From NCBI GenBank assembly GCA_007116035.1, contig SKJG01000076.1:1-64000 (forward strand): a stretch of 64,000 nucleotides of DNA, written 5' to 3'. This document shows, in pieces, positions 17,837-32,757 of the stretch. Within the stretch, counting starts at the first letter, position 1; every line of letters starts with the position of its first letter. This DNA comes from Thioalkalivibrio sp. (GTDB lineage: Bacteria > Pseudomonadota > Gammaproteobacteria > Ectothiorhodospirales > Ectothiorhodospiraceae). The notes below the pieces were generated by a model. It was given only the letters and a program-made list of their open reading frames with translations, was not told where the DNA came from and did not search any database. A program made the translations under genes and the position numbers.

Positions 17837-18289
17837 ATGGCCGCAAACCCGAAGAACGCCAAGCCCTCCTCCAAGCATATGGTCGCCAGCGGCATCGCCG
17901 CGTATGAGCCGGAAGCGGGCGAAGAGTATATGAGCAAGGCGCAACTGGCACATTTCCGGGAACTCCTGCTGATGTGGAAACAGGAGTTGGTGGAAGAAGT
18001 GAGCCGTACCGTCGGGCACATGAAGCAGGATGCGGCGAATTTTGCCGATCCCGCCGATCGCGCGACCCAGGAAGAGGAGTTCGGGCTCGAGCTGCGGGCC
18101 CGGGACCGGGAACGCAAGCTGTGCAAGAAGATCGACGAGGCCCTGCGCAACATCGATCTCGGCAACTACGGCTACTGCGAGGCATGCGGCGTCGATATCG
18201 GCATCCGCCGCCTCGAGGCGCGCCCGACCGCGACGCTCTGCATCGACTGCAAGACGCTGGCCGAGATCAAGGAGAAACAGATGGCATGA
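17837..18289 (+). CDS. dksA: RNA polymerase-binding transcription factor DksA
   Basis: YMSKAQLAHFRELLLMWKQEL...DPADRATQEEEFGLELRARDRERKLCKKIDEAL..YGYCEACGVDIGIRRLEARPTATLCIDCKTLAE zinc finger. Confidence 0.95.
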   Translation: MAANPKNAKPSSKHMVASGIAAYEPEAGEEYMSKAQLAHFRELLLMWKQELVEEVSRTVGHMKQDAANFADPADRATQEEEFGLELRARDRERKLCKKIDEALRNIDLGNYGYCEACGVDIGIRRLEARPTATLCIDCKTLAEIKEKQMA

Positions 18290-18326
18290 GGGCCGGCCAC
18301 CCTCCCCGGCGCCAGCCGGCGACGTC

Positions 18327-19253
18327 TTGACCACGTACGTCGGCCGCTTCGCGCCAACCCCTTCGGGCCCACTCCACCGGGGCTCCCTGACCGCAGCCGT
18401 GATCTCATGGCTGGACGCGCGCAGCCAAAACGGTCGCTGGCATCTGCGCATTGACGACATCGATCGCCCGCGCGCCGTACCGGGAGCCAGCGACGCCATC
18501 CTGCGCGCCCTCGACTGCTTCGGCCTGTCCTGGGACGGTCCCGTGGTCCGTCAGAGCCAGCGCGAGCAGGCCTACGAGGAGGCCGCAACGCGGCTGCAAT
18601 CGGATGGGCACGCCTTCCCCTGTGGCTGCTCCCGCAAGGACGTAATGACCGCCGGCCAGGCCGGCTGGGAGGGCCCCGTCTACCCGGGCACCTGCCGCAA
18701 TGGCCTCCCTGCGGGACGCAAGGCGCAGGCACTGAGGTTGCGGGCCGCCCAGCGCCACTGGACCCTCGTGGACCGCTGTCTCGGCCCGCTGGGATTCGAC
18801 CTGCATTGGCTGGGCGGTGACTTCGTGATCCGGCGCGCCGACGGTTTCTTCGCCTATCAGCTCGCGACGGTGGTCGATGACATTGGTCTCGGGGTCACCG
18901 ATGTCGTGCGGGGCATCGACCTCCTCGGCTCGGCACCCCGGCAGGTGCAGCTGTATCAGTCCCTGAAACGGACCGCCCCGCGCTACCTCCACCACCCGGT
19001 GGTGATTGCCGACAACCATCTCAAGCTCGCGAAGTCCTCGGGGGCCACTCCGGTCCACTGTCGTGACGCCGGCGCTTGCCTGGCCCGGGTGCTGACCGCG
19101 ATCGGCGTCCCCGGGATCGAAGCCGGCTTTGCGGCCAGCGGAGCCAGCGCCGTCGGCGAGTTGCTGCAGCATGCGCGCTCCCATTGGCATTCCCGCCTCT
19201 TGCCTGCGGGTCCGATCCCCGAGGCGCTCCTGCGCGTCAACGGAATATCATGA
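18327..19253 (+). CDS. gluQ: Glutamyl-Q tRNA(Asp) synthetase
   Basis: TTG start gives LTTYVGRFAPTPSGPLHRGSLTAAVISWLDARSQNGRWHLRIDDIDRPR...; follows dksA as in other Gammaproteobacteria. Confidence 0.9.
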   Translation: MTTYVGRFAPTPSGPLHRGSLTAAVISWLDARSQNGRWHLRIDDIDRPRAVPGASDAILRALDCFGLSWDGPVVRQSQREQAYEEAATRLQSDGHAFPCGCSRKDVMTAGQAGWEGPVYPGTCRNGLPAGRKAQALRLRAAQRHWTLVDRCLGPLGFDLHWLGGDFVIRRADGFFAYQLATVVDDIGLGVTDVVRGIDLLGSAPRQVQLYQSLKRTAPRYLHHPVVIADNHLKLAKSSGATPVHCRDAGACLARVLTAIGVPGIEAGFAASGASAVGELLQHARSHWHSRLLPAGPIPEALLRVNGIS

Positions 19254-19367: not shown

Positions 19368-19538
19368 GTGAACCCGTCTGTTGGCGTGTTGCTCGTCGTC
19401 GTGGGAATCCTGCTGTTCCTGTCGCCGCTCGTCCCCTGGGTGGCCACGGTGGCACCGGCATGGTGGTGGCCTTTCGCGGCCTGGGCCGCGTTCATCGCCC
19501 TGATCGCCGTCAGCATGATGCGCCGCCGTGACCCTTAG
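19368..19538 (+). CDS. Small two-TM protein, CbrX-like, translationally overlapping cbrA-like gene
   Basis: GTG start, 56 aa VNPSVGVLLVVVGILLFLSPLVPWVATVAPAWWWPFAAWAAFIALIAVSMMRRRDP, overlaps the next start (19528) by 11 bp. Not listed in the supplied ORF track. Confidence 0.7.
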   Translation: MNPSVGVLLVVVGILLFLSPLVPWVATVAPAWWWPFAAWAAFIALIAVSMMRRRDP

Positions 19539-22458
19539 TCTCGGGTTGCTCTACACGGTCGGGGTCATTTCCCTGGCGCTGCTGTTCGGCATCGCCTTCG
19601 CTGCCGAACGCTCGCGGACCCTCGGCAGTCTCGCCGGCAACGCCTGGGTCTACACCCTGTCCCTGGGCGTCTATGCAACGTCGTGGACGTTCTACGGCAA
19701 CCTGGGTTTTCTCGAGACCCACGGGTATCTGTACCTGACCATCTATCTGGGCGTAACCCTGGCCTTCGCTGCGACGCCATGGCTGCTGCGTCCGATCCTG
19801 CGGCTGGCCCGCGAGCATCAGTTGACCTCGCTGGCCGATCTGTTCGCCTTCCGCTACCGCAGCCGCTTGACCGGACCATTGGTGGCCCTGTTCATGCTCG
19901 CCGGCGTCCTCCCCTATATCGCGCTGCAGATCAAGGCGGTGGCCGAATCCGCCGCGGTCCTGACGGCGGACACCCCGCCTCACCTGCTGGCATTGACGTT
20001 CAGCGCCACCATCGCCCTGTTCGCGGTCCTGTTCGGCGCCCGCCACATCTCGCCGCGCGAGAAGCACTCGGGCCTCGTCGTCGCCATCGCCTTCGAGTCG
20101 CTGGTCAAGCTGGTGGCCCTGCTGACCATCGCCGGCATCGGCCTGTTCGCGGTCTTTGGCGGACTGGCCGGCCTGGATGCCTGGCTGGAGCGCCATCCGG
20201 AGGCGGTCACCGCGCTGTACTCGCCCGTACTCGAAGGAGGCTGGTTCAGCCTGATGGTGCTGGCCTTCGCTGCCGCATTCCTGCTGCCCCGGCAATTCCA
20301 CATGCTGTTCACGGAGAACATCAACCCGAGGGCCCTGACCCAGGCCGCCTGGGGGTTTCCACTCTTCCTGCTACTGCTCAACCTGCCGATGCCCGTGCTG
20401 TACTGGGCCGGGCAAGCCGCCAACCTGACCCAGGACACGAATTACTTCGCCTTGGGATTGGCCGCCTGGCTCGAATCGCCGACGTTGGCCCTGCTGGTCT
20501 TCATCGGCGGGCTCTCCGCCGCCAGCGCAATGATGATCGTGACCACGCTGGCCCTGGCCAACATGGGCATGAACTACCTGTCGCTGCCGGCCCGGGTGCG
20601 TGAACGCAGGACATTGTCGGCCAACCTCTACCGAAACCTGCTGTGGGGCCGGCGCATGTGGATCGTCCTGATCATCGCGCTGGGCTACGGCTTCTACGGG
20701 CTCCTGCAGGTCGTCGAAGGGCTGGCCCAACTGGGCCTGATCTCCTTCGCCGCGGTCACCCAGTTCCTCCCCGGGCTGGTCGGCCTGCTGCTGTGGCCGC
20801 GCGCGACCCGGGTCGGGTTCCTGTTGGGCTTGAGTGCCGGCATCATCGGGTGGTTCTTCAGTCTGGTGGCGCCCCTGCTCGGCAACGCCGGCATCTGGCC
20901 TTCGGCACCCCAACTGCAGCAGACCCTGGGCGCGAGCGGTTTCGATGCGTGGACCTTCGCGTTGACGTTGAGCCTGGGTGCGAACGCCCTGCTGTTCGTT
21001 CTTGGTTCACTGCTGTCGCGCCCGAACCAGGAGGAGATCGAGGCCGGCCAGGCCTGCTGCCCCGGCGGATCCTTTTCTCCCACCGCCGGCCTGCCGCTGG
21101 CGCGCGACATCACCGAGATGGAGGCGGAACTGGGTGCGACGCTAGGCACGATGCCCGCCCGGCACGAGGTACAGCGGGCCCTGGACGATCTGGGGCTGCC
21201 GCGCCACACCCGTTCGCGGCGGGATCTGCAGCGCCTGCGCGAGCGCATCGAGCGCAACCTTTCCGGGTTGCTGGGTCCGGTCCTCGCCCGCATGATCGTG
21301 GACCAGCACCTGCGGCTGGACGCCGCAGGACGCTCCAGCCTCGGCGAGAGCCTTCGCCGCATCGAACAGCAGCTGGAAGACGTCCGGCTGCCGCTGACCG
21401 GCCTGGCCGCCGAACTCGACGCCCTGCGCCGCTTCCATCGGCAGATCCTGCACGAACTGCCGCTGGGCGTGTGCAGCACGACCGCGGGAGGTGAGATCAC
21501 CGGCTGGAACCACGCCCTGCGAGTCCTCACCGGCATTTCTACGGACAGCGCCGTCGGCCAGCTGATCGAGCGACTGGAGCGGCCGTGGGGCGGGCTGCTA
21601 CAGGCCTTCCTCGAGAGCGGGGATCGCCAGATCTACAAGCTGAACCTCGAAACGCGCCATGGCCCGCGACGGCTGAACCTGCACAAGTCCTCCCTCGAGG
21701 TGGTCACGGGCCGCCGCGAGGGCTACGTCATCCTGATCGAGGACGTAACCGCCCGGGTGCAGCTCGAGAGCGAGGTTGCGCACAGTGACCGTCTCGCCTC
21801 GATCGGCCGCTTCGCCGCAGGTGTTGCCCACGAGATCGGAAATCCCCTCGCCGGCATCGCATCGCTGGCACAGACCCTGCCTCTGGAAGACGATCCCAAG
21901 GAGATCCGCGACATTGCCGACGACATCATCGGACAGACGCGCCGCATCAATGCCATCGTGCAATCACTGATCGCCTTCGCACACTCGGATACGCCGCCAC
22001 GCAGCCGGTTCGAGCCAGTCGATCTGAACGACCTGGTCGCCGAGGCCACCCGCCTGACGCGGCTGGCGGGCCGCAAGGACATCCGCTACGACATCTCCGG
22101 GAACGAGGGCCTGTTTCTCCAGGGAGCGCGGCCCAAGCTGCTGCAGGTCTTCATCAATCTCCTGACCAACGCAGAGCAGGCCTCTCCGCCCGGCGCCACT
22201 ATCCACATCCGTGCGCAGCAAACCGGCAGCAGGGTACGGATCGAGATTCGGGACCAGGGTCCGGGGATCCAGGAAACCACGATCGACCGCCTGTTCGAAC
22301 CCTTTTTCACGACCAAACCGGCCGGACAGGGAACAGGCCTGGGGCTGCCGGTGGCCTACAGCATCGTACAGGACCACGGTGGTAGCCTTATGGCGACCAA
22401 TGCACCGGAAGGCGGTGCCCAATTCATCCTGACCTTTCCGCTTGGCGTACCCACATGA
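19528..22458 (+). CDS. CbrA/CrbS-type sensor histidine kinase with SSS transporter domain, PAS, HisKA and HATPase
   Basis: About 13 N-terminal TM helices of SSS type; H-box AAGVAHEIGNPLAGIASLAQTL; N-box NLLTNAEQASPPG; G-box GTGLGLPVAYSIVQDHGG. Confidence 0.92.
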   Translation: MTLSLGLLYTVGVISLALLFGIAFAAERSRTLGSLAGNAWVYTLSLGVYATSWTFYGNLGFLETHGYLYLTIYLGVTLAFAATPWLLRPILRLAREHQLTSLADLFAFRYRSRLTGPLVALFMLAGVLPYIALQIKAVAESAAVLTADTPPHLLALTFSATIALFAVLFGARHISPREKHSGLVVAIAFESLVKLVALLTIAGIGLFAVFGGLAGLDAWLERHPEAVTALYSPVLEGGWFSLMVLAFAAAFLLPRQFHMLFTENINPRALTQAAWGFPLFLLLLNLPMPVLYWAGQAANLTQDTNYFALGLAAWLESPTLALLVFIGGLSAASAMMIVTTLALANMGMNYLSLPARVRERRTLSANLYRNLLWGRRMWIVLIIALGYGFYGLLQVVEGLAQLGLISFAAVTQFLPGLVGLLLWPRATRVGFLLGLSAGIIGWFFSLVAPLLGNAGIWPSAPQLQQTLGASGFDAWTFALTLSLGANALLFVLGSLLSRPNQEEIEAGQACCPGGSFSPTAGLPLARDITEMEAELGATLGTMPARHEVQRALDDLGLPRHTRSRRDLQRLRERIERNLSGLLGPVLARMIVDQHLRLDAAGRSSLGESLRRIEQQLEDVRLPLTGLAAELDALRRFHRQILHELPLGVCSTTAGGEITGWNHALRVLTGISTDSAVGQLIERLERPWGGLLQAFLESGDRQIYKLNLETRHGPRRLNLHKSSLEVVTGRREGYVILIEDVTARVQLESEVAHSDRLASIGRFAAGVAHEIGNPLAGIASLAQTLPLEDDPKEIRDIADDIIGQTRRINAIVQSLIAFAHSDTPPRSRFEPVDLNDLVAEATRLTRLAGRKDIRYDISGNEGLFLQGARPKLLQVFINLLTNAEQASPPGATIHIRAQQTGSRVRIEIRDQGPGIQETTIDRLFEPFFTTKPAGQGTGLGLPVAYSIVQDHGGSLMATNAPEGGAQFILTFPLGVPT

Positions 22459-23762
22459 CACGCATTCTTCTGGTCGACGACGAGGCCACCATCCGCCGTG
22501 GCGTGCGGCGCTTCCTGGAACACCAGGGATTCGACGTGACCCTGGCCGAGGACCTCGCTGGTGCGCGCAGGCAGGCCTCAAACGGGGACTTCGACCTTTT
22601 GCTGGCCGACCTGCGTCTCCCCGATGGCGAGGGCACCACCCTGATCGGGGAGTACCCGCGGCTGCCCACGGTGATCATGACCAGCTATGCCTCCGTGCCC
22701 TCCGCAGTCGAGGCGATGAAATCGGGCGCGATCGACTACATCGCCAAGCCCTTCGACCATGATGCCCTGCTCCTGACTTTGCGTGCCGCCCTGCGCAGTA
22801 GCGGCCACGGCAAAGAGCAGACCGTAGCCACCTCCGATTCCTCGGAGGACTGCGGCCTGATTGGCCAGGATCCCGGCATCGTGACCCTCCGGCACCAGAT
22901 CCGGAGGGTCGCAACGGCGAACTCCACCGTGCTGATCCGGGGCGAGTCGGGCACCGGCAAGGAGGTCGCCGCGCGCGCGATCCACACGCTGAGCCCACGC
23001 GCCGGCCAGCCCTTCGTCCCGGTGAACTGCGCCTCGATCCCCGAGGGACTCGTGGAAGCCGAGCTGTTCGGGCATGCCCAGGGCGCCTATACAGGGGCGG
23101 TCAAGGCGCGCGCAGGCCTGGTTGAGGCTGCTCATCGGGGCGTGCTGTTCCTGGACGAGATCGGCGAGCTGGCACCCGCGGCACAGGCCCGTCTGCTGCG
23201 TGTCCTGCAGGAGGGAGAGATCCGGCCGGTCGGGGCGAACCAGGCGCGGCGCGTCGATGTGCGGCTCCTCGCCGCGACGCATCGGGACCTGGAGGCGATG
23301 ATCGAAGCGGGGGAATTCCGGGCCGATCTCTATTACCGCCTCCGCGTCCTGGAGATCCGGATCCCTCCACTGCGGGAACGCATGGAGGATCTGACCCTGC
23401 TCGCAAGCCACTTCCTGCGCGAACTCGAGTCGCGCTTCGACAAGCACGACGTCGTGCTGAGCGACGAGACCGTTGCCCGGATGATGCATTACTCGTGGCC
23501 GGGTAACGTGCGCGAACTGGAGAACGCCCTGGAACGAGCCGTGGTCCTGTCGGAAGGCAGCCGTATCGATTGGGAACACCTGGGGCTCGCCACTTCGGCA
23601 AAGGAGCCGCGGGGACAGCCGGGCAGCCTGAGCGACTACTTCCGACGCTTCGTGCTCGAGAATCAGGGCCGCATGAACGAGACCCAACTCGCCCAAGCCC
23701 TGGGCATCAGCCGCAAGACCCTCTGGGAGCGGCGACAACGCGAGAACCTGCCGCGGACTTGA
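22455..23762 (+). CDS. Sigma-54-dependent NtrC-family response regulator (CbrB-like)
   Basis: Receiver ILLVDDEATIRRG..LLLADLRLPDG..VIMTSYA; AAA+ GESGTGKE; sigma-54 contact loop GAYTGA; C-term Fis-type HTH LAQALGISRKTLWERRQR. Confidence 0.93.
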   Translation: MTRILLVDDEATIRRGVRRFLEHQGFDVTLAEDLAGARRQASNGDFDLLLADLRLPDGEGTTLIGEYPRLPTVIMTSYASVPSAVEAMKSGAIDYIAKPFDHDALLLTLRAALRSSGHGKEQTVATSDSSEDCGLIGQDPGIVTLRHQIRRVATANSTVLIRGESGTGKEVAARAIHTLSPRAGQPFVPVNCASIPEGLVEAELFGHAQGAYTGAVKARAGLVEAAHRGVLFLDEIGELAPAAQARLLRVLQEGEIRPVGANQARRVDVRLLAATHRDLEAMIEAGEFRADLYYRLRVLEIRIPPLRERMEDLTLLASHFLRELESRFDKHDVVLSDETVARMMHYSWPGNVRELENALERAVVLSEGSRIDWEHLGLATSAKEPRGQPGSLSDYFRRFVLENQGRMNETQLAQALGISRKTLWERRQRENLPRT

Positions 23763-23820
23763 CCATCGGCGGTGATCGCGAGGCCACGGCTTCGCCGTCA
23801 CCGACTACCTGTGAAACGCT

Positions 23821-23860
23821 GCGTTACGTTCCGTAACGCCGGCGTGTTACCGACAGTAAC
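23821..23860. promoter_or_regulatory. Two GTTAC-N5-GTAAC palindromes, candidate upstream activator sites
   Basis: gcGTTACgttccGTAACgc (23821-23839) and gtGTTACcgacaGTAACgt (23844-23862). Confidence 0.6.
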
Positions 23861-23925
23861 GTCGCGGCCCAGCTTGGTACTCGACCCGGCGAGTAACCCA
23901 TTCATTTCCATGGGTAATCCATGCC

Positions 23926-23941
23926 TGGCGCAGGTCTTGCA
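23926..23941 (+). promoter_or_regulatory. Sigma-54 (-24/-12) promoter
   Basis: TGGCGCAGGTCTTGCA matches TGGCAC-N5-TTGCA with GG-N10-GC spacing, 34 bp before the ATG at 23976. Confidence 0.75.
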
Positions 23942-23975
23942 GTAGGAAACGCTCATCCGATTGCACCAGGCACCC

Positions 23976-25853
23976 ATGTCCGACGGGCTCGACACAACCC
24001 GGGAATTCCTCAGCGCCCATGCCCCGTTCGACCGACTCGAGGCGGACGCGCTCGAGTTCCTGTTGCCGCGCCTGGAGACCCGCTTTTATGCCAGCGGCGA
24101 TCGCATCACCGATCCGGACCATGGCCCGGCGCAACGCTTCCACATCATTCGCCAGGGCCGGATTCGTGGTGAGACCCCCAGCGAAGACGAACAGATCTCG
24201 GGCAAGGCCTGGGAACTGATCCCCGGCGAGTCCTTCCCGATCGGGGCGCTGTTGGGGCGCCGGCCGGTGCATACGGTGCATCGCGCACTCGAAGACACGA
24301 TCTGCCTCGAACTCTCGGTCGAAGACTTCGACCGACTGCGTGCCCGTTCCCAGATCTTCAACGACTTCTGCTCGCGACGCCTCGCAAGCCTGCTCGACCG
24401 GGTGCACCAGGGGCTGCTCAGCCAGGGCCTGGGCAATGGGGGCGCCGGCAGCGGGCAACTGAACACGCCACTCGGGGCGCGGATCGCCAGGGAGCCGGTC
24501 ACCTGCGGACCCGACACACCGCTGCGGGAGGCCCTGACCGCGATGCGCGACCAACGGGTCGGCTCCATCGTTGCGGTCGACGGAGAACAGCGGCCGGTGG
24601 GCATCTTCACCATGACTGACCTGCTCGGCCGCGTCGCCCTGCAGGAGGTTGACCTCGATACCCCGCTACAGCGAGTGATGACGCCTGATCCGATTGCGCT
24701 TCCAGACTCCGCGCTGGGATTCGAGGGCATCGAGAGCATGGCCGAACACGGCATGAAGCACCTTTGCGTGGTCGCCGACGGGCGCCTGGTGGGCGTGCTT
24801 GGCGAGCGCGATCTGCTGACCTCGAATCCGTTGACGCTGGACCGCATGGTGCGGGGCATCCTGCGCGCTGAAGCGGTCGGCACCATCGCCGACCACCTCC
24901 GCGAGGTCCCGCGCATGATCGGCGCCGTGATCAGCCAGGGGGCGGAAGCCGACCAGATCCTGCGCCTGATCACCCGCATCAACGATCACGCGACCCGCCG
25001 GGTGCTGGTCCTGATGCGCCGGCAACACGATATCGACGGTATCGATTTCACCTGGCTCGCCTTCGGTTCCCAGGCGCGCGAAGAACAGGCCCTGCGCACG
25101 GACCAGGACAACGGCATCCTGTTTCAGTGCGAGAAGGGGCAGGAGGACGCGACCCGCGAGCGCCTGCTGCCCTTCGCCCAGGATGTGAACAAGGCACTCG
25201 ATGAATGCGGCTTCGACTTGTGCCCCGGAAACATCATGGCCGGCAATCCGGAGTGCTGCCTGAGCGGCCCGGAATGGAACCGGCGCTTCAGCCGCTGGAT
25301 CGACCAGGGCACGCCGGAGCACCTGCTGAAAAGTTCGATCTTCTTCGACATAAGAACCATCGACGGCGATGCCGACCCGGTGGAGTCCCTGCGTTCGCAG
25401 ATGCTGCGCAAAACGGCCTTCAACAGCCGCTTCCGCCGCCAGATGGCCGCCAACCAGATGAGCATCCGCCCGCCACTGGGCCTGTTCGGCGAGATCCGCA
25501 GCGGTGCCGACGGCATCAATATCAAGCTCCAGGGGCTCACGCCCTTCGTCGACGGCGCCCGGGTCATGGCGTTGGCGGCCGAGTTGCCCGCCACCCGCTC
25601 TCACGAGCGGCTGGACCAGGCCGTAGCCAGCGAGGTACTGCGTGAAAACGATGCCCGCGACTATCACGCCGCCCTGCGCTACCTGCAGATGCTGCGCCTG
25701 CGTACGCAGCAGCGCGCGCTGGACGCAGGGCGCGAGGACAGCAACCGAATCCGACCGGAGGAACTCGGCACTCTTGAGGCGCGCGTGCTCAAGGAGGCCT
25801 TCCGGCAGGCCCGCAAGCTGCAGGGGCAGCTTGCGGTTCAGTACCAGCTCTGA
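23976..25853 (+). CDS. Cyclic-nucleotide-binding-like / CBS / DUF294 putative nucleotidyltransferase (first copy)
   Basis: cNMP-like N-term, tandem CBS, FGSQAREEQALRTDQDNGILF nucleotidyltransferase motif. Confidence 0.9.
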   Translation: MSDGLDTTREFLSAHAPFDRLEADALEFLLPRLETRFYASGDRITDPDHGPAQRFHIIRQGRIRGETPSEDEQISGKAWELIPGESFPIGALLGRRPVHTVHRALEDTICLELSVEDFDRLRARSQIFNDFCSRRLASLLDRVHQGLLSQGLGNGGAGSGQLNTPLGARIAREPVTCGPDTPLREALTAMRDQRVGSIVAVDGEQRPVGIFTMTDLLGRVALQEVDLDTPLQRVMTPDPIALPDSALGFEGIESMAEHGMKHLCVVADGRLVGVLGERDLLTSNPLTLDRMVRGILRAEAVGTIADHLREVPRMIGAVISQGAEADQILRLITRINDHATRRVLVLMRRQHDIDGIDFTWLAFGSQAREEQALRTDQDNGILFQCEKGQEDATRERLLPFAQDVNKALDECGFDLCPGNIMAGNPECCLSGPEWNRRFSRWIDQGTPEHLLKSSIFFDIRTIDGDADPVESLRSQMLRKTAFNSRFRRQMAANQMSIRPPLGLFGEIRSGADGINIKLQGLTPFVDGARVMALAAELPATRSHERLDQAVASEVLRENDARDYHAALRYLQMLRLRTQQRALDAGREDSNRIRPEELGTLEARVLKEAFRQARKLQGQLAVQYQL

Positions 25854-25902: not shown

Positions 25903-26163
25903 ATGACACAAGAGGAAAGCAGAGCCGCCTACTGGCGCGCGAATCTGCGGCTGCTCGCCATACTGCTGACGATCTGGTTCGTCGTGTCCTTCGGGTTCGG
26001 CATCCTATTGTCACAGCAGCTGAACGCCTTCAGCCTGGGCGGCTACCCGCTGGGCTTCTGGTTCGCGCAACAGGGTTCGATCTACACCTTCATCATCCTG
26101 ATCTTTTTCTACGCCTGGCGCATGAACGTGCTGGACCGTAAGTTCGACGTGCACGAGGAGTAA
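25903..26163 (+). CDS. DUF4212 small subunit of a sodium:solute symporter
   Basis: AYWRANLRLLAILLTIWFVVSFGFGILLSQQLNAFSLGGYPLGFWFAQQGSIYTFIILIFFYAWRMNVLDRKFDVHEE. Confidence 0.92.
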   Translation: MTQEESRAAYWRANLRLLAILLTIWFVVSFGFGILLSQQLNAFSLGGYPLGFWFAQQGSIYTFIILIFFYAWRMNVLDRKFDVHEE

Positions 26164-26169
26164 GAAAAA

Positions 26170-27942
26170 ATGGATCTCAAGACTCTAAGCTTCATCGTCG
26201 TCGGTGCGACCTTCGCCATCTACATCGCCATCGCGATCTGGGCCAAGGCCAGCACCACCTCCGAGTTCTACGTCGCCGGCAAGGGCATTCATCCGACACT
26301 GAACGGCATGGCGACCGCGGCCGACTGGATGTCGGCGGCCAGCTTCATCTCCATGGCGGGCCTGATCGCCTTCCTCGGCTTCACCGGTGGCGCCTACCTG
26401 ATGGGCTGGACCGGTGGCTACGTGTTGATGGCGCTGCTGCTCGCCCCCTACCTGCGCAAGTTCGGGAAGTTCACGGTGCCCGAGTTCATCGGTGACCGCT
26501 TCTACTCGAAAACCGCGCGCATCGTCGCGGTGATCAGCCTGCTGGTCATGTCCATCACCTATGTGATCGGGCAGATGCGCGGGGTCGGGATCGCCTTCTC
26601 CAACATCCTCGAGGTGGAACTGGCGACCGGCCTGTACGCGGGCATGGCGGTGGTCTTCATCTACGCCGTGTTCGGCGGGATGAAGGGCATCACCTACACC
26701 CAGATCGCGCAGTACGTGATCATGATCTTCGCCTACACGGTGCCTGCGGTGTTCATCGCCATCCAGTTGACCGGGCATCCGTTCCCGCAGATCGGCCTCG
26801 GCGGGACCCTGGCGGGCGAGGATACCTACCTGCTCGACGCTCTGGACAAGACGCTGATGGATCTTGGCTTCGCGGCCTATACGTCGGTTGCCGGCATGAC
26901 CATGCTGAACATGTTCCTGCTGACCCTGGCACTGATGATCGGCACCGCGGGTCTGCCGCACGTGATCATCCGCTTCTTCACCGTGCCGCGAGTCCGTGAC
27001 GCCCGCAAGTCCGCTGGCTGGGCGCTGGTGTTCATCGGCATCCTGTACACGACCGCGCCCGCCGTTGGAGCGATGGCCATGTACAACTTCATCAACACGG
27101 TCCAGCCCGGACCGGTCGGCGACCCCCAGGGCAACGTGATCATCGAGGAGCGACCCGACTGGATGCTGCGCTGGGAGCGGACCGGTCTGCTGCAGTGGGA
27201 AGACAAGAACGATGACGGCCGCCTGCAGTACTACAACGAGCGCAACACCGAGTTCGCCGAGATGGCGCGCGAGGAGTATGGCTGGGAAGGCAGCGAGTTC
27301 ACCCGGATCGACCGTGACATCATGGTGCTCGCCAACCCACAGATTGCAGGTCTGCCCAACTGGGTGATCGCGCTGGTCGCGGCGGGAGGTATCGCTGCGG
27401 CATTGTCGACAGCGGCCGGGTTGCTGCTGGCGATTTCGTCATCGATATCCCATGACCTGCTCAAGGGCGTGTTCATGCCGAGGATATCGGAGAAACGCGA
27501 GCTGATGGCCGGACGCATAGCGATGGGGGCCGCGATCCTGTTCGCGGGCTACCTTGGACTGAATCCACCCGGCTTCGCGGCCGAGGTGGTGGCGTTGGCA
27601 TTCGGTCTGGCTGCGGCCAGCCTGTTCCCGACCCTGATGATGGGCATTTTCTTCAAGCACATCAATCGTGAAGGCGCCATCGTCGGTATGCTCGTCGGCC
27701 TCGCCAGCACCCTGCTGTACATCTTCCTGTTCAAGGGCTGGTTCTTCTTCCCGGGCACGAACGTGTTCCCGGATACGGCTGACTACTGGCTGTTCGGCAT
27801 CAACCCGACCGGCTTCGGCGTGATCGGCGCGATCCTGAACTTCGCTGCCGCCTATGCGGTATCCAGCATCACCAAGGCCCCACCCGAGCACATCCAGAAG
27901 CTCGTGGAAGAGGTCCGTGTGCCGCGCGTGGGTACGAGTTAA
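26170..27942 (+). CDS. Sodium:solute symporter family protein (VC_2705 subfamily; acetate-type)
   Basis: Multi-TM SSS protein MDLKTLSFIVVGATFAIYIAIAIWAKASTTSEFYVAGKGIHPTLNGMATAADWMSAASFISMAGLIAFLGFTGG... Confidence 0.93.
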   Translation: MDLKTLSFIVVGATFAIYIAIAIWAKASTTSEFYVAGKGIHPTLNGMATAADWMSAASFISMAGLIAFLGFTGGAYLMGWTGGYVLMALLLAPYLRKFGKFTVPEFIGDRFYSKTARIVAVISLLVMSITYVIGQMRGVGIAFSNILEVELATGLYAGMAVVFIYAVFGGMKGITYTQIAQYVIMIFAYTVPAVFIAIQLTGHPFPQIGLGGTLAGEDTYLLDALDKTLMDLGFAAYTSVAGMTMLNMFLLTLALMIGTAGLPHVIIRFFTVPRVRDARKSAGWALVFIGILYTTAPAVGAMAMYNFINTVQPGPVGDPQGNVIIEERPDWMLRWERTGLLQWEDKNDDGRLQYYNERNTEFAEMAREEYGWEGSEFTRIDRDIMVLANPQIAGLPNWVIALVAAGGIAAALSTAAGLLLAISSSISHDLLKGVFMPRISEKRELMAGRIAMGAAILFAGYLGLNPPGFAAEVVALAFGLAAASLFPTLMMGIFFKHINREGAIVGMLVGLASTLLYIFLFKGWFFFPGTNVFPDTADYWLFGINPTGFGVIGAILNFAAAYAVSSITKAPPEHIQKLVEEVRVPRVGTS

Positions 27943-27996: not shown

Positions 27997-28047
27997 GAAC
28001 CGCTAGTGCAGTGCAGCTAGTGCAGTGCAGCGTTGCGCTAGCGGTTC
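27997..28047. repeat. 14-bp tandem repeat (CTAGTGCAGTGCAG x2, 28003-28030) within a 10-bp inverted repeat
   Basis: gaaccgctag (27997-28006) ... ctagcggttc (28038-28047). Confidence 0.7.
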
Positions 28048-28069
28048 CATCTGGGGTAATGAATCAGGA

Positions 28070-29929
28070 ATGGATGCGGAACTGCAGGAGATCCGGGAAT
28101 TTCTCGCCGCAAGCCCTGACTTCGCGGTCTTGCCAGAGACGGCGTTGGACCGCCTCCCCAAGCAACTGATCGTGCGCTATCTGCGCCGGGGCAGCAGCTT
28201 TCCGCCGGTGGGCACGGAAGCCGGGGACCTCTGGCTCGTTCGCGCGGGCGCGGTGGACCTGCGGGACAGCCACGACGAACTGCTCGACAAGCTGGGCGAG
28301 GGTGACGTCTACGCGAACCCGGCGAATGGAGATCCGGTCACGCCGGTGATCGGGCGTGTGGTCGAGGACGCCCTCTTCTACCTGCTGCCCGCAAGGGACT
28401 CCGAGGAATTGCGGCGGCAACACCCAGAATTCGCGGAGCGCTTTGACCGCGCCAGCAGCCGCCCCAAGGAGAAGGCCCTCGCCGCACTGCAGGGCGCCGG
28501 CAGTCAGGGCGACAGCGTGCTAACCGTCTCGGTCGGCGAACTGATCACGCGCGCCCCCGAGTCCACCTCCCCTGACGCGAACATCCAGTCCGCCGCGCAG
28601 CACATGAGTGAACAGAATGTCTCCGCCCTGTTGGTGATGGCCGAAGACGAGCTGGTCGGGATCGTCACCGACCACGACCTGCGCAAGCGCTGCCTGGCGA
28701 CCGGACGATCACGCAAGGAGCCCGTGGGCAACATCATGAGCAGCCGGCTGCAGACGGTGACCCCGGAGACGCCGGCCTTCGAGGCGCTGCTGCTCATGTC
28801 CCGCCAGGACATCCATCACCTGCCGGTGCTGGCCGGAAAGCGTCCCGTGGGGCTGATCTCAACCACGGACCTGATCCGGCACCAGGGCACCAATGCCGTC
28901 TACCTGGTGCGGGACATCCGGCGCTGCGAGTCGGTGGCAGCCCTGTCCCGGGTGGCCAAGTCCCTCCCGGAACTGCAGATCCAGCTGGTGCAGTCGGGGG
29001 CCACCGCCTTCCATCTCGGGCAAGCCATCACGGCCGTGATCGACGCTCTGACCCGGCGCCTGCTGAAACTGGCCGAGGCCGAACTGGGCCCACCGCCGGT
29101 ACCCTACGCCTGGCTCGCCTGCGGCTCGCAGGGGCGTCGCGAGCAGACCGTGCACACGGATCAGGACAATGCCCTGATCCATGCGGACTCCGACCAGAAA
29201 GGTATCGACGCCTATTTCGTCCGTCTCGCCAACTTCGTGACGGACGGGCTCGACCGCTGCGGGCTGCCGCATTGCCCCGGCGGGGTGAGTCCGAAGAACA
29301 GCGACTGGCGGCGCAGCGTCAGCGACTGGCGGAACGCATTCGCAAAGGCCACCTACAATCCAGACTTGAAGGGTGCGATGCTTGCCGCGCATTACTTCGA
29401 TCTCCGCGTCGTGCACGGCGACGCCACGCTGTTCGACCCACTGCGCTCCGAGGCCCTCGCAAGCGGGGCACGACGACCCTTCATCAACCAGATGGTCACC
29501 AATGCCCTGCGCCATTCACCACCCCTGGGGTTCTTCCGGCAGCTGGTGCTGGTCCGTAGCGGCGAACAGGCCGACACGCTCGATGTGAAGAAACAGGGCC
29601 TGCTGCTCGTCTCGAGCCTGGCGCAGGTCTACGCACTTCTCGGAAGGCTGACCGGGATGCACACCATGGAACGGCTCCGGGGTGCCGTACAATTGGGTAT
29701 CATCAACCGCGATGCCGGGGCCAACCTCTGCGATGCCTACGAGACACTCGCCACCCTTCGCACCCGACACCAGGTCAACCAGCTGAAGGGCGGCCTGAGC
29801 CCCGACAATCACATTCCCCCGAAATCGCTGTCGGCGCTGGAGCGCGGGCACCTGAAGGACGCCTTTTCGGTCATCGCGACCATGCAGAAAAACCTCCGGG
29901 TGCAACTGGCCGGCACGGGATCGCTGTGA
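28070..29929 (+). CDS. Cyclic-nucleotide-binding-like / CBS / DUF294 putative nucleotidyltransferase (second copy)
   Basis: MDAELQEIREFLAASPDFAVLPE...; two CBS motifs; ACGSQGRREQTVHTDQDNALIH. Confidence 0.9.
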   Translation: MDAELQEIREFLAASPDFAVLPETALDRLPKQLIVRYLRRGSSFPPVGTEAGDLWLVRAGAVDLRDSHDELLDKLGEGDVYANPANGDPVTPVIGRVVEDALFYLLPARDSEELRRQHPEFAERFDRASSRPKEKALAALQGAGSQGDSVLTVSVGELITRAPESTSPDANIQSAAQHMSEQNVSALLVMAEDELVGIVTDHDLRKRCLATGRSRKEPVGNIMSSRLQTVTPETPAFEALLLMSRQDIHHLPVLAGKRPVGLISTTDLIRHQGTNAVYLVRDIRRCESVAALSRVAKSLPELQIQLVQSGATAFHLGQAITAVIDALTRRLLKLAEAELGPPPVPYAWLACGSQGRREQTVHTDQDNALIHADSDQKGIDAYFVRLANFVTDGLDRCGLPHCPGGVSPKNSDWRRSVSDWRNAFAKATYNPDLKGAMLAAHYFDLRVVHGDATLFDPLRSEALASGARRPFINQMVTNALRHSPPLGFFRQLVLVRSGEQADTLDVKKQGLLLVSSLAQVYALLGRLTGMHTMERLRGAVQLGIINRDAGANLCDAYETLATLRTRHQVNQLKGGLSPDNHIPPKSLSALERGHLKDAFSVIATMQKNLRVQLAGTGSL

Positions 29930-30633
29930 TCCGCCCGGGACCCTGGGTCTTCTGCTGGCGTCGCCATCGCCTGGCGGCACGCCTGCCCCAGAACCCGCTC
30001 CGCGACTACCTCCGCCACGAGATGCCCGACCTAAACGGGGACTGCAGCAGCACTCCGTTCCTCGCCGTAGATTTGGAGACCACCGGCCTGAATCCCAGAG
30101 AGGACCAGATCCTGAGTATCGGCTGGGTCGCGATGGACGGCCTGGCCGTCCGCCTGGCCACGGCCGAACAGCGTTGGGTCCGGCCCACGCGGGACATTCC
30201 GGAGGCCAGCGCAGTGGTTCACCAGATCACCGACGACCAGGCCGCGCGTGGCGGCAGCTTGGGCGAAGCCCTGGCCCATCTGCTCAGCGCACTGGCGGGC
30301 CGCGTGATGCTTGCCCACCACGCCGCCGTGGAGACCGGTTTCCTCGACCGGGCCTGTCTCGCGGAATATGGTCATCCCTGCATGATTCCTACCGTCGATA
30401 CCCTGAAGCTGGCCCAGGACGAACTCGCACGTCGGCAGGAGACAGCGCGCTCGGGCGGACTGCGGTTGAACGCTCTGCGGCAGCAGTACAACCTGCCCCG
30501 CTACCGTGGTCACGACGCGCTGCTCGACGCACTGGCCGCGGCAGAGTTGTTCGCCGCACAGATCACCCATCGGGCCGAGGGGCGTCCGCTGCCCCTGCAC
30601 CGCGTGCTGCACCGGCCCGGCCCCCTATGGTGA
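29926..30633 (+). CDS. 3'-5' exonuclease (DnaQ/DEDD family)
   Basis: FLAVDLETTGLNPREDQILSIGWV; HHAAVETGFLD; YRGHDALLDALAAAELF; 4-bp overlap with preceding gene. Confidence 0.9.
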   Translation: MIRPGPWVFCWRRHRLAARLPQNPLRDYLRHEMPDLNGDCSSTPFLAVDLETTGLNPREDQILSIGWVAMDGLAVRLATAEQRWVRPTRDIPEASAVVHQITDDQAARGGSLGEALAHLLSALAGRVMLAHHAAVETGFLDRACLAEYGHPCMIPTVDTLKLAQDELARRQETARSGGLRLNALRQQYNLPRYRGHDALLDALAAAELFAAQITHRAEGRPLPLHRVLHRPGPLW

Positions 30634-30798
30634 CACGGGGTGGGGAATGCGCAGGCAGATTGCAAGGCACATGCTATTCTCGATGATTGCACAGCGGCGT
30701 CAGAGGGAGCCACTGGTACATCCCAGAGCATGCAGAAACCGGGGGCCGCGCCGACGGTCCCTCGAACAACCAAGACCTGGACCATTTGGAGGCAAGAG

Positions 30799-32757
<1,959 letters not shown>

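Follow-up and report, generated by a model that had tools for sequence, protein, structure and literature searches.

The cbrB-DUF294a gap and the genes around it

The window, i.e. the whole stretch of 64,000 nucleotides that was analysed, comes from a soda-lake sulfur bacterium and carries the gene order gluQ-cbrX-cbrA-cbrB, which is the CbrAB layout and is matched in relatives, many of which also have the gluQ-like gene upstream of cbrA. A gap of 213 bp holding two palindromes, an IHF-like box and a sigma-54 element separates cbrB from DUF294a, the first gene of an operon that ends with an acetyl-CoA synthetase gene (Table 1).

Table 1. Features of the window, in order along the forward strand
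Feature	Position	Strand	Basis or remark
gluQ-like gene (glutamyl-Q tRNA(Asp) synthetase family)	18030..19253	+	Pfam tRNA-synt_1c; lies 5' of cbrXAB
cbrX-like small ORF, 56 aa, hydrophobic	19368..19538	+	11-nt overlap with cbrA start
cbrA orthologue, 976 aa	19528..22458	+	SLC5-like membrane half, PAS, HisKA, HATPase
cbrB orthologue, REC-AAA+(sigma-54)-HTH response regulator	22455..23762	+	domains, recognition helix, tree
Enhancer palindrome 1, GTTACGTTCCGTAAC, proposed CbrB dyad	23823..23837	.	perfect GTTAC-N5-GTAAC
Enhancer palindrome 2, GTTACCGACAGTAAC, proposed CbrB dyad	23846..23860	.	perfect GTTAC-N5-GTAAC
IHF-like box, TAACCCATTCATT (reverse of WATCAANNNNTTR, one mismatch)	23894..23906	-	pattern comparison across promoters
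Sigma-54 -24/-12 element, TGGCGCAGGTCTTGCA	23926..23941	+	GG-N10-GC, conservation, RpoN gene in genome
Predicted transcription start	23953..23953	+	analogy with the CrcZ model of L040
DUF294a: cNMP-binding, CBS, DUF294/DUF294_C; putative nucleotidyltransferase	23976..25853	+	first operon gene, ATG at 23976
Sodium/substrate symporter small subunit (DUF4212 type)	25903..26163	+	TIGR03647
VC_2705-family sodium/solute symporter large subunit, ActP/MctC-like	26170..27942	+	TIGR03648, 823 bits
DUF294b, second DUF294 protein	28025..29929	+	
DnaQ/DEDD-type 3'-5' exonuclease	29926..30633	+	
acs, acetyl-CoA synthetase (acetate--CoA ligase)	30640..32757	+	TIGR02188 equivalog

The two palindromes GTTACGTTCCGTAAC and GTTACCGACAGTAAC lie 23 bp apart, start to start, exactly as a sequence-only reading of this DNA had described them, and the 70-105 bp upstream that it gave for their position corresponds to 65-103 bp when measured from the -24 element, or to about -93 to -130 with respect to the predicted transcription start (about 23953). 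A scan of the whole assembly of 3,034,046 bp returned only two perfect GTTAC-N5-GTAAC sequences, which are this very pair, while base composition leads one to expect about 0.93 for the genome and 0.02 for the window; moreover, the chance of finding a second perfect palindrome at no more than 40 bp from the first is p about 2e-5. The palindrome pair is thus confirmed as an observation far above chance. The sigma-54 element likewise has the exact GG-N10-GC spacing claimed for it, with GG at 23927-23928 and GC at 23939-23940; it carries one mismatch to the sigma-54 consensus used and ends 34 bp 5' of the DUF294a start codon. Loose -24/-12 matches occur in the window at chance frequency (30 found, 27.8 expected), and TGGCGCAGGTCTTGCA, unremarkable alone, takes its significance from the fact that its core is kept at a fixed distance in 44/44 orthologous promoters. 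The source genome has an rpoN gene, whose product shows the RpoN DNA-binding domain at E 2.9e-67. Given that the CrcZ model in L040 begins 13 nt past the C of the -12 GC, the start was placed by analogy near 23953, and the leader of the DUF294a transcript would accordingly count about 23 nt.

Concerning the regulator, the sequence-only reading spoke of a CbrB-like activator, and gene order, recognition helix and clade identify it as a true CbrB orthologue. Indeed, the CbrB tree places it in one clade with Pseudomonas CbrB (51 rows, support 100/99) and leaves the ten other sigma-54 activators of the source genome that were placed in it all outside. The recognition helix LGISRKTLWERRQR is nearly identical to LGISRKCLWERRQR of Pseudomonas, and the helix LGISRKxLWERRQR, common to both, is absent from the other readable sigma-54 activators of the source genome. 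Among named relatives, the regulator is closest to those in two Thioalkalivibrio metagenome assemblies (80% identity). The kinase shows PAS, HisKA and HATPase domains by Pfam and no receiver domain, and is 45% identical over its full length to Pseudomonas CbrA (L022); its membrane half gave no Pfam SSF call even at E 5 but shows homology to Pseudomonas CbrA throughout. The cbrX-like ORF has two membrane-helix-like stretches, as judged by eye, and has counterparts in relatives; Pseudomonas cbrX encodes 58 aa, with a 17-nt overlap into cbrA (PMC8871633). Gene order, domain layout, tree and recognition helix all assign the CbrA-CbrB pair of the window to the CbrAB family.

On the target side, the symporter is of the two-subunit SSF type (TIGR03647/TIGR03648 pair), and the operon content suggests that its role is probably acetate scavenging, by uptake and activation. 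Acetate is, with moderate confidence, the likeliest substrate of the symporter, another short monocarboxylate being possible. Similarly, at other cbrB loci with GTTAC/GTAAC sites the gene directly behind the promoter is acs (L014) or the SSF symporter pair (L013, L042), even though the neighbours of cbrB are different there.

Conservation of the enhancer-promoter and its link to DUF294a

The family sample comprised 47 Ectothiorhodospiraceae genomes, of which 44 have a DUF294a orthologue, and all 44 promoters were inspected; since many of the genomes are closely related, the counts are not independent events. The exact double palindrome is found in 27/47 genomes, in one place each (on two contigs in one fragmented assembly), and a DUF294a orthologue lies directly downstream in 27/27, while the reversed-pattern control is found in none of the 47. 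At least one perfect palindrome is present at 44/44 DUF294a orthologues, and the neighbouring palindrome, at a distance of 19-23 bp, is perfect in 27 promoters, departs from the pattern at one position in 6 and at two positions in 11. The arms of the palindromes are constant and the inner N5 spacers are free to vary; spacers and spacings differ from genus to genus, and the pattern is seen across five genera and four further families. The sequence-only reading had pointed out a 5-bp spacing unlike that of Pseudomonas; this spacing is conserved through the lineage of the window as a feature of it and is not noise. Of 369 genomes sampled across the class, only 7 have the exact pair, each time before DUF294a, the four pairs from outside the family being also 5' of this gene.

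The rest of the promoter is equally constant. The GG-N10-GC core is present in 44/44, either 52-55 or 61-65 bp past the enhancer, two distance classes that differ by about one helical turn, and its -12 element stands 34-85 bp from the DUF294a start codon. All 44 also have an IHF-like sequence whose end falls 16-19 bp 5' of the -24 element, with one mismatch in 27, two in 12 and three in 5; in the 27/27 exact-pair promoters that carry it the mean is 1.6 mismatches, compared to 3.5 in shuffles.

In several genomes, namely those of the Thioalkalivibrio ALJ/ARh group, G012 and G022, cbrB is not adjacent but on another contig or far off, and in G016 it is about 1 Mb from the palindromes. At these moved loci the palindromes, the IHF-like box and the sigma-54 element all remain before DUF294a, and a function linked to the cbrB end is thereby excluded; the palindromes as part of the cbrB 3' end were accordingly rejected, since they travel with DUF294a.

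The genome scan for GTTAC-N5-GTAAC that the sequence-only reading had proposed was run as a full listing of perfect palindromes in 15 genomes, which gave 33 sites located almost exclusively at the DUF294a operon or upstream of cbrA: 26 in the DUF294a promoter and five upstream of cbrA, i.e. 31/33. The remaining two lie before a porin-like gene in G135 and near a glnB-like gene, the latter with no sigma-54 element by it. On this evidence, CbrB in the group of the window would be a dedicated one-operon regulator, as opposed to the global CbrB of Pseudomonas, and imperfect or split sites could be additional targets. The G135 locus (L255, G135:C1:286242) shows a dyad pair, the second degenerate, together with a TGGCACGACCCTTGTT / TGGCAC-like element, and the start of its downstream gene reads like a secreted porin; it is a possible extra CbrB target outside the family.

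The dyad upstream of cbrX-cbrA and the nature of the palindromes

A perfect dyad also precedes cbrA in about 22 loci that span many families: one set of 12, and 10 out of a second set of 12 cbrB loci taken from other families, with 0.0007 expected in the second set. The dyad is single at this place, in most cases about 20-35 bp 5' of the cbrX start, and adjoins a conserved TAGGCT/TAAGCT-like element. With respect to the cbrA start it is found at -217 (L010), -223 (L011), -196 (L013), -226 (L164), -231 (L166), -188 (L170) and -189 (L171), and it occurs as well in L227-L231, L233-L235, L237 and L238. In Thioalkalivibrio the palindrome is absent upstream of cbrA, and many Pseudomonas have only a GTTAC half-site near -217 of cbrA. 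From this distribution, the cbrX-cbrA-cbrB genes are probably under CbrB control themselves in most relatives, Thioalkalivibrio and Pseudomonas excepted. Since there is no room at cbrX for an enhancer-spaced sigma-54 promoter, we infer autoregulation there, perhaps repression. This palindrome at the cbrX-cbrA-cbrB promoter of relatives, the acetate operon and the IHF-like box are features beyond those of the sequence-only reading.

The same distribution bears on which protein would bind the dyads. They could belong to another operon-specific regulator, such as an acetate repressor or another sigma-54 activator, with the neighbourhood of cbrB being coincidental, and the separation of cbrB from the palindromes in the Thioalkalivibrio ALJ/ARh group, G012 and G022 fits with such an arrangement. 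However, the half-site is the CbrB subsite mapped in Pseudomonas (PMC6296734) and the identical dyad stands upstream of cbrA in the loci of many families described above. Furthermore, cbrB is present in every palindrome-bearing genome checked, three outside the family included, whereas only 17/185 sampled class genomes, from 16 families, have a CbrB relative at the strict threshold. We consider another regulator very unlikely, and a CbrB-bound sigma-54 enhancer is suggested with high confidence by this comparison of genomes.

Besides the relatives in these 16 families, there are CbrAB homologues in Myxococcus. CbrAB has been described as exclusive to Pseudomonadaceae in papers defining and reviewing the CbrB regulon (PMC6296734, PMC8871633), statements that need revision given relatives in so many families, and nothing relevant was found in the literature on CbrB in Halomonas, Marinobacter or Thioalkalivibrio. 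In Myxococcus qinghaiensis (L020), clustered GTTAC/GTAAC half-sites are seen 70-130 bp after the cbrB homologue; the next gene reads like that of a secreted protein, and acs and a symporter-like gene are found further on.

Inverted repeats might also act in RNA, as a hairpin that terminates or attenuates the cbrAB transcript, instead of as protein-binding DNA. The region 23763-23925 does fold more stably than shuffles (z -3.5), and the palindromes form one long inverted repeat in some species (L115, L116). Yet no terminator-like site with a T run was found, the repeats are kept where cbrB is not upstream and at fixed helical distances to the sigma-54 site, and the dyad occurs upstream of cbrX-cbrA as well, so that an RNA hairpin appears so improbable as to be nearly negligible. 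With regard to the long repeats, the palindromes and spacer of L115, L116 and L157 make up one nearly perfect inverted repeat of 37-38 bp, in which the N5 spacers are related too; the window is without such a long repeat.

Relation to known systems and proposed function

The half-sites, matched to Pseudomonas CbrB subsites in the sequence-only reading, agree with the published TGTTAC/GTAACA (PMC8871633, PMC6296734), a subsite mapped in P. putida by mutagenesis and binding assays (PMC6296734). As at the crcZ/crcY promoters of Pseudomonas (PMC6296734, PMC8871633), an orthologous regulator is encoded and the promoter occupies the same spot after cbrB, with GTTAC/GTAAC half-sites and an IHF-assisted sigma-54 promoter, IHF being predicted here. 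The arrangement differs: the published consensus is TGTTAC-N12-14-GTAACA-N15-19-GTAACA (PMC8871633, PMC6296734), i.e. F1-N12-14-R1-N15-19-R2 subsites, whereas the window has two contiguous N5 dyads whose distance lies within the family range of 19-23 bp. The output differs as well, being the sRNA CrcZ in Pseudomonas and, by prediction, a protein-coding acetate operon in the window, where the DUF294-acs operon occupies the place of crcZ after cbrB.

The position of crcZ and the identical half-sites would also suit a promoter driving a CrcZ-like small RNA, with the DUF294 operon served by run-through or by another promoter. Against this, the predicted start is separated from the DUF294a ATG by only about 23 nt, the -12 element keeps its short distance to the start codon in 44/44 promoters, and the promoter went along with DUF294a in the moved loci. 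Furthermore, CrcZ gave no match at gathering score in the window and none in six family genomes, compared to strong matches in three Pseudomonadaceae genomes, and we regard the small RNA as extremely unlikely. Terminator, attenuator and sRNA readings were thus set aside, given the lack of both a T-run terminator and CrcZ and the footprint at DUF294a.

Other cbrB loci show different surroundings. In the region about 150-330 bp past cbrB of a Lysobacteraceae MAG (L050), GTTAC/GTAAC sites and a sigma-54 element lead into about 150 bp that close with a GC-rich hairpin and a T run (terminator-like), and acs comes next; this could represent an sRNA unlike CrcZ. Several GTTAC/GTAAC half-sites lie within the first 360 bp after cbrB in Marinobacter, Oceanospirillales and relatives (L026, L029, L030, L053, L064, also L018, L019, L021 and L062), most of these loci having a near-consensus sigma-54 element. 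Rfam gave no CrcZ match in L026, L029, L030, L053 and L064, nor altogether in eight cbrB loci, of which seven are Marinobacter, Halomonas-like, Halospina, Oceanospirillales-type or other gammaproteobacterial contigs and one is a Lysobacteraceae MAG. The Marinobacter/Oceanospirillales-type loci are candidates for unannotated CbrB-driven transcripts.

The CrbS/CrbR system of Vibrio and Pseudomonas (PMC5715377, PMC5436829) resembles that of the window in placing an SLC5-type kinase over acetate genes. Its targets are acs, actP and a cNMP/CBS/nucleotidyltransferase gene (PMC5715377, PMC5436829); in Pseudomonas fluorescens the CrbS/R acetate regulon includes ActP and Pflu5625, a protein similar in kind to DUF294a (PMC5715377). 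However, CrbR is LuxR-type and CrbS has a receiver domain, while CbrB of the window is of the sigma-54 type and CbrA is without a receiver. With the same query, one SLC5-type kinase was found in the source genome (CbrA) versus two or three in Pseudomonadaceae genomes, and no CrbS (hybrid SLC5 kinase) was found in the source genome; given this single kinase, CbrAB seems to do the work of CrbS/R there.

In terms of geometry, the enhancer of the window resembles those of NtrC. The NtrC enhancers at glnA are two TGCACC-N5-GGTGCA dyads, and both types have a pair of dyads, each centred on 5 bp, located 5' of a sigma-54 promoter, and share the 6-5-6 geometry; they differ in the half-site and in having CbrB instead of NtrC. 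It is from this geometry that binding of CbrB as a dimer is proposed, Pseudomonas CbrB being reported as monomeric, on non-palindromic subsites (PMC6296734).

Taken together, the site is very probably a CbrB-controlled enhancer-promoter of an operon for uptake and activation of acetate or short monocarboxylates. The comparative evidence supports the proposal of the sequence-only reading that the upstream activator directly controls the DUF294-symporter cluster. In the proposed mechanism, CbrA would sense carbon status, for which acetate may be the signal as well as the substrate, and phosphorylate CbrB. Two CbrB dimers would then bind the two GTTAC-N5-GTAAC dyads on about the same face of the DNA and assemble the AAA+ ring, IHF would bend the DNA between enhancer and promoter, and the ring would open the RpoN-polymerase at 23926-23941, giving a transcript DUF294a-DUF4212-SSF-DUF294b-exonuclease-acs with its short leader.

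With respect to the literature, what appears to be new is that CbrAB occurs outside Pseudomonadaceae, that the NtrC-like dyad is contiguous and that the predicted output is a protein-coding acetate operon. CbrAB may be an older, autoregulated and nearly single-target acetate/monocarboxylate switch of Gammaproteobacteria with contiguous NtrC-like dyads, from which the Pseudomonas form (CrcZ/Crc, split subsites) would have derived by exchange of the gene behind the enhancer-promoter and opening of the dyad by about one helical turn; we hold this evolutionary reading with moderate confidence and give it an even chance. The CbrB binding site has been held too relaxed for prediction (PMC6296734, PMC8871633). 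A dyad so sharp and nearly unique in the genome would make the CbrB DNA code and regulon predictable, and CbrAB of the window type could serve as a simple single-target model system. The signal of CbrA may relate to acetate or other monocarboxylates, and one conserved enhancer-promoter module would drive either a regulatory RNA or a metabolic operon.
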